DNA of 41,698 nt, taken from assembly GCA_028820845.1 (NCBI GenBank), contig JAPPII010000030.1:1-41698 (forward strand). The letters run 5' to 3'. The stretch's first letter is position 1; each line of letters opens with the position of its first letter. This DNA comes from Candidatus Poribacteria bacterium. Its GTDB lineage: Bacteria > Poribacteria > WGA-4E > WGA-3G. Both the position numbers and the translations under genes were made by a program. The notes under the pieces were generated by a model. The model did not search any database. It was not told the origin of the DNA and was given only the letters and a program-made list of their open reading frames with translations. Below, in pieces: positions 29,673 to 41,640 of the stretch.

Positions 29673-29723
29673 TAATGGAATTTTGGATTAGCGTATTTAT
29701 CTAACACACAAGGAGAGAACATT

Positions 29724-30647
29724 ATGTTTAAGCCCGTTTTTCACTGGACCGCCGCATATCTGACAGGATTCATCGTTCTGTTGTTGATAGTTGGCACAGT
29801 CCCCGCGCTCGTCGCGAGTGAAGAGATTCAGTGGCGTGAATCCGTAGAGGTCACCCTGAAGGAAGCCGAGGAAGCCGACAAACCTATCATGATGGACTTC
29901 TATACCGACTGGTGAGGGTTCTGTAAGCGGCTGGATGCCGAAACGTTTACAGATGCCCGCGTCGTCACCCTCGCGGAAAATTTCATTTCCGTCAAAGTAA
30001 ATCCAGAGGACACAGAACGTCCCATCAATGAGGAGATGCGGAGCCGATACGGAGTCAATGCTTACCCGGCAGTCCTCTTCATCAGTCCAGACGGTGGACT
30101 CATTAAATATCACTCAGGATTCCTACCGCCTGATCAATTTACGCCTGTGATTGAAGATGCCTTGAAGGTGGAGTCTGCGTTCCAAAAGCAGTTGGAAGAA
30201 TTGGAAGCGAAACCGGATGATGGCAAACTCAACGCTGAGGTCGCGCTCATCTATTTGGAACGGAAGCAGTTGGAAAAAGGAGTCCTGTTCAGCGAGAAAG
30301 CGTTTGAACACGATCCGAAAAATAGGTCGAAACTCATCCCGAAATTGCACAACCAGTTGGGACTCACTTACGGCACGCTCCTTGAAACCGCCGGTGCTGA
30401 AAAGTCAGAGGCGTATTTTGAGAAGTCGGTCTCTCACTTCAAGGTGCTTATAGACAAGTATCCGAATAGCGATGTTTATGAACCTGCCCAGTATTACCTC
30501 GGTGTGACCTACGCCATTAAGGAACATTATGAGGACTCGATCGCAGTGCTTGAAAAGTTATCGCACCACGCCAAGGATGCAAACATCAGGCAGAGTGCTG
30601 AGGCAATGCTCGAACGGGTCAAAGATTTGGCAAACGCCGATGAATAG
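29724..30647 (+). CDS. Thioredoxin-like TPR protein with in-frame UGA at the first active-site cysteine (probable selenoprotein)
   Basis: A 307-residue protein if the UGA at 29913-29915 (codon 64) is read as selenocysteine. AAGGAG precedes the ATG. An N-terminal membrane segment (residues 12-32) suggests export or anchoring. The thioredoxin fold then reads KPIMMDFYTDW-UGA-GFCKRLDAETF, where relatives have DWCGWCKR or similar; so the UGA replaces the first cysteine of CxxC, giving UxxC. The frame continues without a break through AYPAVLFISPDG (the cis-proline region) to a TPR-like C-terminus (about residues 150-300). A hairpin follows the UGA at 29921-29952. Without recoding, only a 63-residue fragment would be made. 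A plain nonsense mutation or sequencing error (TGT or TGC to TGA) is the alternative. The rest of the frame shows no decay. Confidence 0.75.
29921..29952 (+). promoter_or_regulatory. Candidate bacterial SECIS hairpin
   Basis: Five bases after the UGA, CTGTAAGCG (29921-29929) can pair with CGTTTACAG (29944-29952) over nine positions with one G-U pair. An alternative fold keeps the outer six pairs and adds CGGC/GCCG (29928-29931 with 29937-29940) around a TGGAT loop with an exposed G. The distance from UGA to the apical loop (about 17-20 bases) is within the range for SelB-binding hairpins. Confidence 0.55.
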
Positions 30648-36318: not shown

Positions 36319-37821
36319 CTAATGTTTGGCATGATATGCACTCGCTGAGGCGTTACAGGTATAATACGAATGCCCCTTGCCACAGACGGCATCATGGTCA
36401 CCGGCTTTACCCCCGCAACCCGTCCACCCGTGTGCACCACACATCGCTGCATCGTCATCAGCTTCTTCATCAGAGTCATCGTCATCCGAGTCGTCGTCCG
36501 CATCGGAGGCATCATCGTCGTCATCCGAGTCTGGATCTGAATCCGCTTGTGGGGGTGGTGGTGGCGGCGGTGGCGGCGATGGCGGAGCAGCTTTATGCTT
36601 TGAATGTCTCTCCGCTGCATCCGTATTGCACGTATAATATGCATGCCCCGCAGCGCACGTCGCATCATGATCCCCCGCATCCCCACCGCAATCCGTCCAC
36701 CCATGCGCCGGACACGTCGGCTGCTTCTCAGGGAACTTGTGCGTATGTCCCTTACACGTCCAATATCCCGAGGTCCGCTCACACGCATCGCCATTCGCAT
36801 TCGTCGCCGAACACGACGAGACAAACGAATGATCCCCACTCGCAGACTTCGTATGTCCACACTTGCGAACGCCTTCCGAGGAATCGCCACCCTTGTTGTT
36901 GGAATCCGAATCGGAGTCCCCATCCTTGTTGGAATTGGTGTTCCCATCCTTGTTCTGATTAGCACCCGATTGGTCCTTGTTGTTATTAGTCTGCTTTGGC
37001 GGTGCCTGCGGCGGGGCATCCGAGGCGGTATGTGCTTCATGCGCGGCTTTTGCCGTCAAATTACACGTGTAATACGTGTGACCCGCAGGACACGTCGCCG
37101 CATGTGAGACCGTCCCACCGCAACTCGTCCACGCATCCGCACGACAGGCAACCTGCTGGCGGGTAGACCCCTCCGAATCGTCATCTTTGTGCTTCTGCTC
37201 CTGAGAACTTGAATCTCCCGGATTCTGCCCCGGCTCCAGCGGGTCTGGGTTCGGAGCAGCATCCGAGGCGGTATGTGCTTCATGTGCGGCTTTCGCCGTC
37301 AGATTACACGTATAATACGTGTGACCCGCAAGACACGTCCGTTTATGAGCAGTGCCGGTGCCATCGCAGCCCGTCCACCTCGCAGCAGGACACGGACGCG
37401 GCTCCGAAGGATACTTATGCAGATGCGGGGGATCGGCACACAGGATCATCCGCCCCCCACTGACCGTGCACGTCTCCCCCTTGTCATTGCGAGGACACCG
37501 CGCCAGACCATGCCCTAAACCCTCATCGCAGAAATAAAACTGTTCGCTACAAAACTCACAAGACACCCGCAGATGAATCCCCTTTGAACCCACAGCATGA
37601 CCACACGCCAACGTCTCTGCGGATGTCGCTTTATCACAGACCCCGACCCCGTGTTTATCCGACTCTGTGCACGACCAGAAGTGCGTTTTACACACAGCAC
37701 ACTTCACATAGTGCGGTTGACCGATGTTGGGATCCGAGGGCGTGGACTCTGCACCGAAAACACTCGGCAGCACATTCAAAAACAGAACACCGCATAAAAA
37801 TAGAGAAAAAACTTGTTTCAT
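36319..37821 (-). CDS. Exported Cys/His-repeat protein with low-complexity linkers
   Basis: A 500-residue protein with a signal peptide (residues 1-23) and about 30 cysteines; no family recognised. Four copies of a 40-residue module begin at Cys144, Cys226, Cys370 and Cys461. The shared pattern is C-x4-WT-x-CGG-x(3-6)-H-x-A-x-C-x2-GHxYYTCN, then A-x3-H-x2-H. Cys and His could bind zinc, copper or haem, or form disulfides. Separate CxxC and CEFC pairs lie in residues 41-91. Linkers are Ser/Asn/Lys/Asp-rich (271-318), polyproline (415-424) and acidic (427-457). AAGGAG precedes the ATG. It is the last gene of a six-gene operon whose other members are exported or membrane-anchored. A metal-binding or redox surface protein is an inference only. 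Confidence 0.8.
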   Translation of the reverse strand: MKQVFSLFLCGVLFLNVLPSVFGAESTPSDPNIGQPHYVKCAVCKTHFWSCTESDKHGVGVCDKATSAETLACGHAVGSKGIHLRVSCEFCSEQFYFCDEGLGHGLARCPRNDKGETCTVSGGRMILCADPPHLHKYPSEPRPCPAARWTGCDGTGTAHKRTCLAGHTYYTCNLTAKAAHEAHTASDAAPNPDPLEPGQNPGDSSSQEQKHKDDDSEGSTRQQVACRADAWTSCGGTVSHAATCPAGHTYYTCNLTAKAAHEAHTASDAPPQAPPKQTNNNKDQSGANQNKDGNTNSNKDGDSDSDSNNKGGDSSEGVRKCGHTKSASGDHSFVSSCSATNANGDACERTSGYWTCKGHTHKFPEKQPTCPAHGWTDCGGDAGDHDATCAAGHAYYTCNTDAAERHSKHKAAPPSPPPPPPPPPQADSDPDSDDDDDASDADDDSDDDDSDEEADDDAAMCGAHGWTGCGGKAGDHDAVCGKGHSYYTCNASASAYHAKH

Positions 37822-37864
37822 TTCAGAAACTCCTTACTTTTGAAAATCGTGAAAACACCCCACT

Positions 37865-39019
37865 CTATGAGCCCGAACCCGAACCCGAACCGCTGATGTT
37901 ATGAGGCAACCCACATTCCGGACAGATATTCTCCGCGGACACTGACACCCTTGACCAGGTATGTGAACCGTGACGCGCACATTCCCAAACCATCTCATGA
38001 CAGACCTGAATAATCAAACTCCCATCAGATTGCTTCGCCGTCTGACCTACCGAACCACACCGCACGCGTTGACCATGCTTCCCCGGTGAACCGGCTGCGT
38101 ATGTATGCTTCTCCTCACCCTCCGGACAGGGACCCACTATGCGATGATCCGCAGCATGCCGACACGCCGTGACGGTGCCGGCATTCGGGTTTGGACACGT
38201 GAAATATAACCCACCTTCGCATGTCTTACCCGTCGAGTGCCGCGTTTCCGCACATACAACACCGTGATCCCGATAGACCTTCTTGTTTATTTTCACAGCT
38301 TGTTGTGATATAGGATCGGGCGGTATTATCGTGGTATCATCATAAGGTGGTTGGAGCGATTCCATACACCCACGACACGCTTGCGTCTCTGTAGAGGCTT
38401 CCGACTGAGAGGGTGGGTCTATCTCGCGGGTATGATCGGGAAACTTCGAGGCAACATCTATCGGTTTGGCTTCCTCGTCATCGAATATAGGCTTCTCACC
38501 TTCGGGCAACGCCTTTTCCCACGCCGCCAGTTTCTCGTTGACCCTCTCTGCCTGGGTTTGAACCACGGCTGTCTGATCTATCACTTCTGTTTCGAGATCA
38601 TAAGCCCCTTGCTGGAGCTCCTTCAACGTCGCCTGCAAGCCCTTATCCTCAATCGCAGTGTTGATGATCTCCGCAACATTCTTGCCAGCAACGATACCCG
38701 CTGCCGTCTTCGCAGCTATTGCCGTCGCCGCAGTTCCAGATAAAATCGCAGCCGCTACGAGAGCGACATTTCCTAATCTCGCAACTTCCGCAGCCGAAAG
38801 TTTGCCATCTATCTTCTCAATACTCGATTTTGAAGCGGTTAAATCCGTTTTAATCTTCATCAACTTACGGTCTTTCGTGCCGAGATTCGTCACGGCATCT
38901 CGATAGGCTTGCTTTTCAGGGGTTTCTGTGCTCCCACCTTGAGCAAATCCAAGCCGTACAGTGTGCAAGCAAAAGACAAACAACACAAAAGTTGTTAGAA
39001 AAATTGGTCTGTTTTTCAT
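37865..39019 (-). CDS. Exported coiled-coil protein with a hydrophobic Gly/Ala segment and Cys-rich C-terminus
   Basis: A 384-residue protein, unrecognised family. A signal peptide (1-26, ending GFAQ) is followed by a helical part, a hydrophobic Ala/Gly-rich stretch (81-115, LGNVALVAAAILSGTAATA) long enough to cross a membrane, and a second coiled coil (125-165). From residue 205 there are about a dozen cysteines in CxxC and CxxH-like pairs (CRGC, CPEC). The last residues are an SGSGSG repeat encoded by a GGTTCG tandem. The segment matching bases 38496-38892 is identical to part of the gene at 41005-41640. The ATG overlaps the previous stop by four bases and follows GGAGAGG. Confidence 0.75.
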   Translation of the reverse strand: MKNRPIFLTTFVLFVFCLHTVRLGFAQGGSTETPEKQAYRDAVTNLGTKDRKLMKIKTDLTASKSSIEKIDGKLSAAEVARLGNVALVAAAILSGTAATAIAAKTAAGIVAGKNVAEIINTAIEDKGLQATLKELQQGAYDLETEVIDQTAVVQTQAERVNEKLAAWEKALPEGEKPIFDDEEAKPIDVASKFPDHTREIDPPSQSEASTETQACRGCMESLQPPYDDTTIIPPDPISQQAVKINKKVYRDHGVVCAETRHSTGKTCEGGLYFTCPNPNAGTVTACRHAADHRIVGPCPEGEEKHTYAAGSPGKHGQRVRCGSVGQTAKQSDGSLIIQVCHEMVWECARHGSHTWSRVSVSAENICPECGLPHNISGSGSGSGS

Positions 39020-39735
39020 CGTTGCCTCTCCTGCAATTGACCCCGCAGAGCCTCGATCTCTTTTGAGATCGCCTTCTGTTGTTCAAGAAGCTTGATGACT
39101 TCTGTATCCAGTACCTCAGACCTATCTATCTTTGATGTTACCAGGTCCCCTAGTTGTTTCCACTCTTCGAAAAGGGGTGCCTCGCGGCGTTCCTTTTCTT
39201 TTTTCAAAAGCCACTTATCCGTACGGATCGCAGACATTTCTGCCGAGAGCACCTCTTGTTTGCGCTGGAGTTCTTTTGCCTCCTTTAGAAGTTTTCTTGA
39301 CTGAGTAATCTTTGGGTCGCTAACGCGCGTGAGTGCGTTATATTCAACCCTAAGTTGCTGGATTTTCGCCTCAAGTGCTTTGCGTTCTTCAGACGTAAGG
39401 GGATCCAGAGCAACCCCTTCACGCTGTGAACCCGTTCCCGAGGCACTGGGTGCATCAAGGGTGTCGTTCCGTTCGGATGCTGCTTCCCCGGATGTAGGGG
39501 TTTCCATCCCATTTGCTTCATGCGGTTCAGTATGGAAAGTGCCATCCTCATGAAAATGCCCACCTTGTGCGGTCTCATCATCAACTTTCGGTGGGACTTC
39601 GGTATCTTCAACTTCTACGGGTTTGTAGACCTTGATAGGGGCTTGCTCGGAAACTTGCTGGCCTCGCCACACACCAATACCTATTACAATCAACAATACA
39701 ATCAAAATCGGTAGCCAAAGCTTCTTGTTCAACAT
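39016..39735 (-). CDS. N-terminally anchored coiled-coil protein with HxH motif (copy 2)
   Basis: A 239-residue protein, family unknown. A short charged start and one membrane helix (residues 7-24, WLPILIVLLIVIGIGV) suggest a type II anchor with the rest outside the cytoplasm. A histidine cluster GGHFHEDGTFHTEPHE (about 58-73) could bind metal and is a hallmark also seen in the neighbour at 40287. The C-terminal 130 residues are charged helices with coiled-coil periodicity. GGAG lies upstream of the ATG; the end overlaps the next gene by four bases. Confidence 0.7.
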   Translation of the reverse strand: MLNKKLWLPILIVLLIVIGIGVWRGQQVSEQAPIKVYKPVEVEDTEVPPKVDDETAQGGHFHEDGTFHTEPHEANGMETPTSGEAASERNDTLDAPSASGTGSQREGVALDPLTSEERKALEAKIQQLRVEYNALTRVSDPKITQSRKLLKEAKELQRKQEVLSAEMSAIRTDKWLLKKEKERREAPLFEEWKQLGDLVTSKIDRSEVLDTEVIKLLEQQKAISKEIEALRGQLQERQR

Positions 39736-39738
39736 AAC

Positions 39739-40290
39739 TTATCTCCTTTTTGCGTTGAGAAAAATATCCGTTTTGAGTGCTAAGACGACCCGCTCACCTG
39801 CTCCTTCAAGTGTTGCCTGTTTTGACTTGACCTCATCAAGGAGGTTCTCAAGGTCCTCTCCCTTTTCCCAAAGTTCTACTTTCTCTGCCGAGATAATCAC
39901 CTGACTCCCAACAGTAACGGACCCGGCCGAAATTATCACCGCTGTTGCGGTGCCGCCGCTGATATACGTTGCAAACGAAGCACCCGCAATACGAATCAAG
40001 TTAATCAACGAGTTTACCGTGGTCTGATCTATACTCGCTTTATTCTCATCAATATCTTCGCGAACTTTTTCGACCTTCCTAACAGCCTCGTTGTGGTTTC
40101 CAACAGCGTTTCCCAGACTCTCTTCTGATGTCATATACGTCTGATGCAGTTTGTTTGTGGAGAGTTCCTTGTACTTCTCTATCGGGTCATCGTCTTCGCC
40201 TGCTGCTGCCGCAGCGAACAGAAAGGGGCCTGTGAGAAGCAGACACAGCACATAGAACAGACGAACAACGCTCAAATTGTTTCTTTTCAT
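39739..40290 (-). CDS. Exported coiled-coil protein with hydrophobic Gly-rich segment
   Basis: A 183-residue protein. A signal peptide (1-30, ending FAAAAAG) is followed by a coiled coil (residues 45-90), a Gly/Ala/Ser-rich hydrophobic segment (91-130, including IRIAGASFATYISGGTATAV) and a second helix ending VKSKQATLEGAGERVVLALK. The final 15 residues (LKTDIFLNAKRR) match those of the gene at 41005-41640. It follows GGAGG, with a four-base ATGA overlap with the upstream gene. A paralogue of the proteins at 37865 and 41005. Function unknown. Confidence 0.7.
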   Translation of the reverse strand: MKRNNLSVVRLFYVLCLLLTGPFLFAAAAAGEDDDPIEKYKELSTNKLHQTYMTSEESLGNAVGNHNEAVRKVEKVREDIDENKASIDQTTVNSLINLIRIAGASFATYISGGTATAVIISAGSVTVGSQVIISAEKVELWEKGEDLENLLDEVKSKQATLEGAGERVVLALKTDIFLNAKRR

Positions 40291-41000
40291 TGTGTGCCTC
40301 CTTGTGTTTCGGCTTCCGCGGCGCGCTGTTGTTGCTGTTGGGCGCGGTGAAGCTGACGAATTCGACGACGCTCAGCCATAATAGCCATATAATCCTCATG
40401 TTGTCTCTGTAGCTCGTCCATGTGAGCTCTGAAAGCAGCCCATTTCGCTTCCAGTGCCTTTTTCGCCGCTAAATATGCTTCTAGTTCGGCTTCTGTCCGT
40501 TCTGGCATAGCAAGAACTCGCTTATGTTCCGCTATAAGCGCGTCATGCCATGCGTTCCGTGCAAGGAGCTCTTCGGGAGATTCAGGATCCGGAGGAAGAG
40601 GAGGCAGGCGCGGTAGGTCACTAGGGGTGCCCTGCTCCGATGCGGCTTCGGACAGTGCCACCCCAGAGGGATGCGTCTGTTTTTCGGAGAGACCTAAAGG
40701 TGTCGGGGCCGCGGTTTCTACATCCGCCGGCAACTCAACGCCACCAGAAACAGCCGCCCCGGCGGGAGCAGGGGTCTCATGGGAGCCGGTGTGCCACTCG
40801 TCGCCGTGCCAGTGTCCGCTCTCAGCGGTCTCGCCCGGGGGGGGCGGTTTTGAGGCGTTCAGCCTCTCTTGGGTGCGTTGGAGGTCCCGGTCAGCTTGGC
40901 GTTTGACGGTGTTGAGATACAACAGACCACTGGCAACAAAGACCAATACCAACACGAGTGCTGTGAAAATACGATTCTGGGATAACAGTCGATTGAACAT
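40287..41000 (-). CDS. N-terminally anchored coiled-coil protein with HxH motif (copy 1)
   Basis: A 237-residue protein. One membrane helix (about 11-28, FTALVLVLVFVASGLL) is followed by the histidine cluster ESGHWHGDEWHTGSHE (about 60-75), a Pro/Ala-rich linker and a long charged helix ending in poly-glutamine (LHRAQQQQQRAAEAE). It is arranged like the protein at 39016-39735: membrane anchor, His cluster, linker, coiled coil. Each copy follows a signal-peptide coiled-coil gene, so the operon repeats a two-gene unit. GGAG precedes the ATG by seven bases. Function unknown. Confidence 0.7.
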   Translation of the reverse strand: MFNRLLSQNRIFTALVLVLVFVASGLLYLNTVKRQADRDLQRTQERLNASKPPPPGETAESGHWHGDEWHTGSHETPAPAGAAVSGGVELPADVETAAPTPLGLSEKQTHPSGVALSEAASEQGTPSDLPRLPPLPPDPESPEELLARNAWHDALIAEHKRVLAMPERTEAELEAYLAAKKALEAKWAAFRAHMDELQRQHEDYMAIMAERRRIRQLHRAQQQQQRAAEAETQGGTQ

Positions 41001-41004
41001 GCGT

Positions 41005-41640
41005 TTATCTCCTTTTTGCGTTGAGAAAAATATCGGTTTTGAGTTTCAAGACGACCTGCTCATCGTCTCTTTCAAGTGTGACCTGTTTTGACTTAACCTC
41101 TGTGAGCATCAAACCCGCCATCGAATCCCCGAGAAACACCTCGCGATATTCACCTTCGGGCAACGCCTTTTCCCACGCCGCCAGTTTCTCGTTGACCCTC
41201 TCTGCCTGGGTTTGAACCACGGCTGTCTGATCTATCACTTCTGTTTCGAGATCATAAGCCCCTTGCTGGAGCTCCTTCAACGTCGCCTGCAAGCCCTTAT
41301 CCTCAATCGCAGTGTTGATGATCTCCGCAACATTCTTGCCAGCAACGATACCCGCTGCCGTCTTCGCAGCTATTGCCGTCGCCGCAGTTCCAGATAAAAT
41401 CGCAGCCGCTACGAGAGCGACATTTCCTAATCTCGCAACTTCCGCAGCCGAAAGTTTGCCATCTATCTTCTCAATACTCGATTTTGAAGCGGTTAAATCC
41501 GTTTTAATCTTCATCAACTTACGGTCTTTCGTGCCGAGATTCGTCAGAGCCTGGTGATAGGCTGTTTCTTCAGGGGTTTCTGTGCTCCCAACTTGAGCAA
41601 ATCCAAGTTGTACAGTGTGCAAGCAAAAGACAAACAACAC
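41005..41640 (-). CDS. Chimeric coiled-coil protein, 5' end disrupted
   Basis: A 211-residue reading frame from a GTG at 41640. Residues about 10-160 are nearly identical to the protein at 37865-39019, with 397 identical bases (41150-41546 and 38496-38892). The last 40 residues resemble the protein at 39739-40290 (EVKSKQVTLE, LKTDIFLNAKRR). Upstream of 41652 the sequence diverges from the intact paralogue, removing the start of its signal peptide (MKNRPIF in the intact copy). The gene is therefore either 5'-truncated by an insertion or translated from the weak GTG. It would be the first gene of the operon. The window ends 58 bases further on. Confidence 0.65.
   Translation of the reverse strand: MLFVFCLHTVQLGFAQVGSTETPEETAYHQALTNLGTKDRKLMKIKTDLTASKSSIEKIDGKLSAAEVARLGNVALVAAAILSGTAATAIAAKTAAGIVAGKNVAEIINTAIEDKGLQATLKELQQGAYDLETEVIDQTAVVQTQAERVNEKLAAWEKALPEGEYREVFLGDSMAGLMLTEVKSKQVTLERDDEQVVLKLKTDIFLNAKRR
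41150..41546. repeat. 397-bp perfect duplicate of 38496-38892
   Basis: Read base by base, 41150-41546 and 38496-38892 are identical, while both flanks diverge. The identity ends abruptly inside both genes. Such a sharp boundary suggests recent gene conversion or a local duplication. Confidence 0.9.

Follow-up and report, generated by a model that had tools for sequence, protein, structure and literature searches.

The thioredoxin-TPR gene at positions 29724–30647 of the window, that is, the whole 41,698-nt stretch of DNA analyzed here from a sponge-associated Poribacteria bacterium (genome of 5.69 Mb, completeness 95.5%), is very probably a selenoprotein gene, in which the UGA at position 29913 would be read as selenocysteine (Sec). 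Sec insertion itself is deduced from sequence comparison, and the reading is very probable because the genome contains the complete Sec machinery and because essentially all related species have the same UGA and the same hairpin. The frame runs from an ATG at 29724 to a TAG at 30645–30647 and is interrupted by a single in-frame TGA (29913–29915), after which 243 codons follow; with the TGA translated as U, the sequence around it reads FYTDW-U-GFCKRLD. As is expected of a bacterial selenoprotein, an in-frame UGA occupies the position of the catalytic Cys in homologues, and the frame runs on beyond it. The original prediction had described the same frame, with UGA at the first CxxC cysteine and 243 open codons after it, and its coordinates were exact. 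The features of the gene are as follows.

29724–30647, plus strand: predicted selenoprotein gene for an exported thioredoxin-like (UGFC) protein with a TPR tail, 307 residues including Sec64; frame open but for one TGA.
29913–29915, plus strand: UGA codon for the predicted Sec64, the first position of UxxC.
29707–29723, plus strand: upstream stretch (acacaaggagagaacattATG) with a putative Shine-Dalgarno-like AAGGAG ahead of the ATG.

At nearly all named Poribacteria loci, the gene lies in the fixed order jag, mnmE, Zn ribbon protein gene, thioredoxin-TPR gene, and rluB (with rluB and a HAD gene on the opposite strand), an arrangement that does not imply function.

Conservation of the UGA codon in Poribacteria

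Of the 73 genomes that represent the order in a search of the phylum, 72 had an orthologue with the in-frame TGA and one, G076, had no detected orthologue; no Cys version of the orthologue was found anywhere in the phylum. The alignment of orthologues that had been proposed as a check showed UGA in all of them and Cys only in distant homologues of other phyla, including a protein from Aminicenantes (L084, codon TGT) and another from Bacteroidota (L085, codon TGC). The motif varied among the orthologues (UGFC, UGWC, UGAC, UGSC, UPSC, UYWC, and UPAC), and the TGA was kept even at 31% identity, in a more distant copy from another family of the class (YTDTUPAC). Several genomes carried two copies of the gene, with TGA in both. 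Second paralogues with TGA were observed in G080, G069, G065, G066, and G070, and the copies in this genus had extra TPR repeats. Separately, a short copy (L083/L093; G062:C50) had a lipoprotein-like signal (LSSGC) and a TGA at UGFC that was soon followed by another TGA, and this copy is possibly degraded or frameshifted.

A sequencing error at the TGA was considered and rejected, because independent assemblies carry it: it was present in another MAG from this species, at 99% identity, and in 70 further genomes of the order. The dN/dS values were 0.07–0.27 both upstream and downstream of the UGA (ten comparisons, one value being undefined because of dS saturation). Because they are well below 1 on both sides, the whole frame is selected as coding sequence.

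Sec-to-Cys swaps are common in other selenoprotein families; here, all the orthologues recovered have kept the predicted Sec, the most divergent of them at about 31–37% identity. We regard the chances that this phylum-specific thioredoxin-TPR family depends on selenocysteine as about even; if it does, the periplasmic reaction of the protein would need a selenol. In any case, the family poses the question of why an exported thioredoxin retains Sec in every species.

Selenocysteine machinery and other selenoproteins of the genome

The genome contained selA (519 bits), selB (351 bits), and selD (363 bits), as well as selC, which directly adjoins selB and was recognized both by the Rfam tRNA-Sec model (78 bits) and by ARAGORN, as tRNA-SeC with the anticodon TCA [tRNA-Sec(UCA)]. 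The absence of selB and selC from the genome had been named in advance as the outcome that would speak against a selenoprotein, and it did not occur. Together with the conservation of UGA in the orthologues, the presence of all four genes supports the proposal that this lineage encodes selenocysteine, the use of which is documented here across the sampled Poribacteria order. Among the relatives, selB was above the cut-off in 53 of 60, and selD carried one TGA in all 54 in which it was found. In this genome, too, selD is interrupted by an in-frame TGA, a feature of many Sec-decoding bacteria; the gene (L020) is located at G000:C123:5786–6709, and the TGA reads CAGUASK. In the class-level relatives G051 and G055, neither selB nor selD was matched at the applied thresholds, and a thioredoxin-TPR orthologue was likewise not found at E 1e−15. 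A search of the genome for YbbB/SelU (selenouridine) found no match, so the selD there is not explained by the selenouridine trait.

A peroxiredoxin family search of the genome found at least five peroxiredoxin-like (AhpC-TSA-type) genes with TGA at the catalytic site (FTGGU, FGTGU, WUPFC, TUANC, and WUPNS). Two of them, L109 and L110, are adjacent (G000:C5:38650–39468), and each has a TGA at the catalytic position (FYPKDFTGGU and FYPRDFGTGU), while the AhpC-TSA-like genes L112, L114, and L115 (G000:C31, C99, and C11) have the in-frame TGA in GVWUPFC, TGTUANC, and GTWUPNS, respectively. A further AhpC-TSA-like candidate lies at C22:94723–95055. Counting SelD, the thioredoxin-TPR protein, and the five or more genes of the peroxiredoxin type, the genome looks rich in selenoproteins. 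When a covariance model of the SECIS described below was run on the genome, the thioredoxin-TPR gene was the sole match, suggesting that the other selenoproteins probably use different hairpins.

A conserved predicted SECIS hairpin downstream of the UGA

The following RNA features were recognized around the UGA.

29928–29940, plus strand: conserved SECIS apical hairpin CGGC-UGGAU-GCCG, the loop of which begins 16 nt after the UGA.
29912–29950, plus strand: possible lower stem enclosing the UGA (29912–29916 with 29946–29950), tentative; 100% paired in the RNAalifold consensus, with one-sided G-U/G-C changes only.
29921–29952, plus strand: 9-bp hairpin of the original prediction (29921–29929 with 29944–29952), with 9/9 pairs here and poorly conserved.

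Codons 69–73 formed the strongest window of synonymous constraint in the gene (40 orthologues). In the stretch CGG-CTG-GAT-GCC after the TGA, the codons of R69 (CGG), L70 (CTG), and D71 (GAT) were invariant wherever the residue was conserved, and that of A72 was GCC in 93%, compared with a median top-codon share of 0.56 at conserved 4–6-fold sites. All four pairs of the apical stem could form in 43 of the 45 TGA-containing sequences and three of the four in the other two. The sole exceptions at codons 69 and 72 were paired, with CGG changed to CAG together with GCC to GCT, which turns a G-C pair into A-U. Because this compensatory change was confined to one clade (three sequences) and was probably one event, the covariation is thin, and the score for pairs with both sides changed was equalled by 129 of 500 shuffles. 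The main statistical support for the predicted SECIS is thus the synonymous freeze, not covariation. Across its members, the family nevertheless provides naturally occurring SECIS variants, one compensatory pair among them.

The bSECIS model describes an apical loop of 3–9 nt with a G within its first two positions, an upper stem of 4–16 bp, a distance of 16–37 nt from the UGA, and an MFE of −7.5 or lower (PMC13188914). The apical hairpin agrees with this model, with a 5-nt loop (UGGAU, G second), a 4-bp stem, a distance of 16 nt, and −19.9 kcal/mol for the forced structure. When the window sequence was folded by itself, the longer helix gave the lowest energy and the apical stem was disfavored (P 0.05–0.20; 1.2 kcal/mol worse when forced), and in many orthologues the apical stem was fully formed (P about 1). 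The 66-nt stretch folded with z = −2.36. The search of Rfam around the UGA matched no SECIS family, which is not evidence against a SECIS, since bacterial SECIS elements vary widely (PMC13188914).

The hairpin originally proposed as the SECIS, at 29921–29952, is indeed present, and a SECIS does appear to lie close by, but the conserved core is 29928–29940. Among 47 distinct stretches (45 with TGA and two Cys homologues), only a minority had all nine pairs of the 9-bp helix and the rest had three to eight; the Cys homologue L084 kept eight of nine. The CGGC-UGGAU-GCCG hairpin, in contrast, was absent from the Cys homologues.

Could the UGA instead be a true stop, leaving a pseudogene, or a first product that ends at 29913 and a second that is initiated anew at an internal ATG such as that at 30036? 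A 203-aa ORF does start at 30036, and it is the one that a pipeline without Sec decoding would call. Such a split, though, would divide the thioredoxin domain right at the catalytic motif. It also fits poorly with the retention of both the TGA and the reading frame in 72 of 73 genomes, with the low dN/dS before and after the codon, and with the additional nucleotide-level constraint directly past it; we consider it very improbable. Still more remote is decoding of UGA as one of the standard amino acids, Trp or Gly, either genome-wide or by nonspecific readthrough. Reassignment of UGA is known in other bacteria, but TGA terminates 10 of the 30 likely genes in the window, so the codon also serves as a stop here; TGG or GGN never occurred at the position in the orthologues; and the UGA aligns with a catalytic Cys in a genome that has both tRNA-Sec and SelB.

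Domain architecture and relation to known proteins

The predicted protein is divided as follows.

29724–29819, plus strand: signal peptide spanning roughly residues 1–32, which is probably cleaved off.
29829–30089, plus strand: Thioredoxin_7/DsbD-gamma-like domain (PF13899; AF2 model matching DsbD gamma and DsbH).
30213–30644, plus strand: C-terminal TPR-like helical repeats (helices 167–305), based on the AF2 model, a fold match, and TPR families in 29/29 members.

The Pfam families PF13899, PF13098, PF03190, and PF00085 were matched over residues 31–161, and the scores of PF13899 (52.5 bits) and PF13098 (49.9 bits) against a gathering cut-off of 27 place the domain in the Thioredoxin_7/Thioredoxin_2 superfamily. 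In the AF2 model (mean pLDDT 89), the thioredoxin domain matched DsbD gamma (1vrs_D; Z 15.0, rmsd 2.3 over 111) and DsbH (2ju5; Z 15.4), and the C-terminal part matched the TPR domain of YbgF (2xev; Z 13.3, rmsd 1.7 over 122 residues). The TPR profile was weak in the window copy (18.3 bits, below the cut-off of 27), and TPR_2 matched 29/29 orthologues (best E 7e−10), which identifies the family as TPR proteins. The thioredoxin and TPR assignments of the original prediction therefore held, whereas its anchored N-terminus reads better as a cleavable signal peptide: the model has a helix at residues 9–24 with low pLDDT around it, and the orthologues have AxA-like sites of the AHA/ARA type in their signal peptides. 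These sites make secretion to the periplasm probable.

Thioredoxin-like selenoproteins with UxxC are already known (PMC13188914, PMC1088965), as had been noted at the outset, and those listed include a "thiol:disulfide interchange protein" (PF13098) and Trx (PF00085) (PMC13188914). The Poribacteria protein resembles them in its catalytic UxxC within a thioredoxin fold, its downstream bSECIS, and its matches to PF13098 and PF00085, but differs in combining a DsbD-gamma/Thioredoxin_7-like domain with a TPR tail. The best NCBIfam match was to the C-terminal domain of TsoB (NF045694), a rhodanese/DsbD fusion-like selenoprotein, with residues 10–143 aligned to model positions 434–568; the score of 79 bits is far under the cut-off of 805, and the Poribacteria protein has neither the rhodanese nor the DsbD membrane domain. 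The Trx7/PDZ (seleno)protein model NF041199 also describes a Thioredoxin_7-type domain in a selenoprotein, but scored 20 bits (cut-off 300) and has CxxU and PDZ instead of UxxC and TPR. DsbD gamma and DsbH (PDB 1vrs, 2fwe, and 2ju5) resemble the thioredoxin domain in both fold and sequence, but they have Cys and no TPR tail, and DsbD gamma belongs to a membrane protein; the whole-protein DsbD model NF001419 (membrane electron-transport plus gamma, cut-off 330) gave 56.7 bits, in the gamma region only.

The Aminicenantes homologue L084 is laid out in the same way, with the site FYTDW-x-xxC-KRL in a thioredoxin domain that TPR repeats follow, but it shares 31% identity, uses a TGT Cys codon, and lacks the hairpin. 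The combination with a TPR tail is accordingly less distinctive than had been proposed. No whole-protein model in NCBIfam covers the thioredoxin-TPR selenoprotein, which was found in this analysis only in Poribacteria and is a new subfamily of the DsbD-gamma/Thioredoxin_7-type UxxC selenoproteins. A literature search, with most subscription journals outside its scope, returned nothing on Poribacteria selenoproteins, and an earlier mention may exist. The nearest paper was a sponge metagenome study in which SelA and SelB co-occurred in most symbiont bins (PMC5649159).

Proposed mechanism and function

A ribosome reaching the UGA at 29913 would meet the SECIS hairpin just downstream, where SelB with Sec-tRNA-Sec would be recruited and selenocysteine inserted. 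The product, of 307 residues, would be exported; its thioredoxin fold, similar to that of DsbD gamma, would carry the redox site U-G-F-C, and its TPR tail may pick partner proteins. The DsbD-type protein of the same genome (L089), which carries Cys (WCAAC), would be the likeliest electron donor. The most likely role is that of a periplasmic selenol-disulfide reductase, which we hold with roughly even confidence and in which the redox direction is inferred. A selenoprotein with another activity is a possible though less favored reading: UGFC may serve in oxidation or isomerization, in the handling of peroxide or metals, or as a redox switch carried by a TPR scaffold, since redox direction cannot be told from sequence and the motif varies. 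Set against this, the nearest folds and profiles, DsbD gamma and DsbH, are both reductive, and a DsbD is encoded in the genome.

Whichever activity the selenoprotein has, standard gene calling would truncate the thioredoxin-TPR family. Elsewhere in the window, the neighboring genes at 37865–39019 and 41005–41640 (minus strand) share a long identical stretch, suggesting recent duplication, and the pair lies beside Cys/His-rich, secreted-looking genes at 36319–41000.
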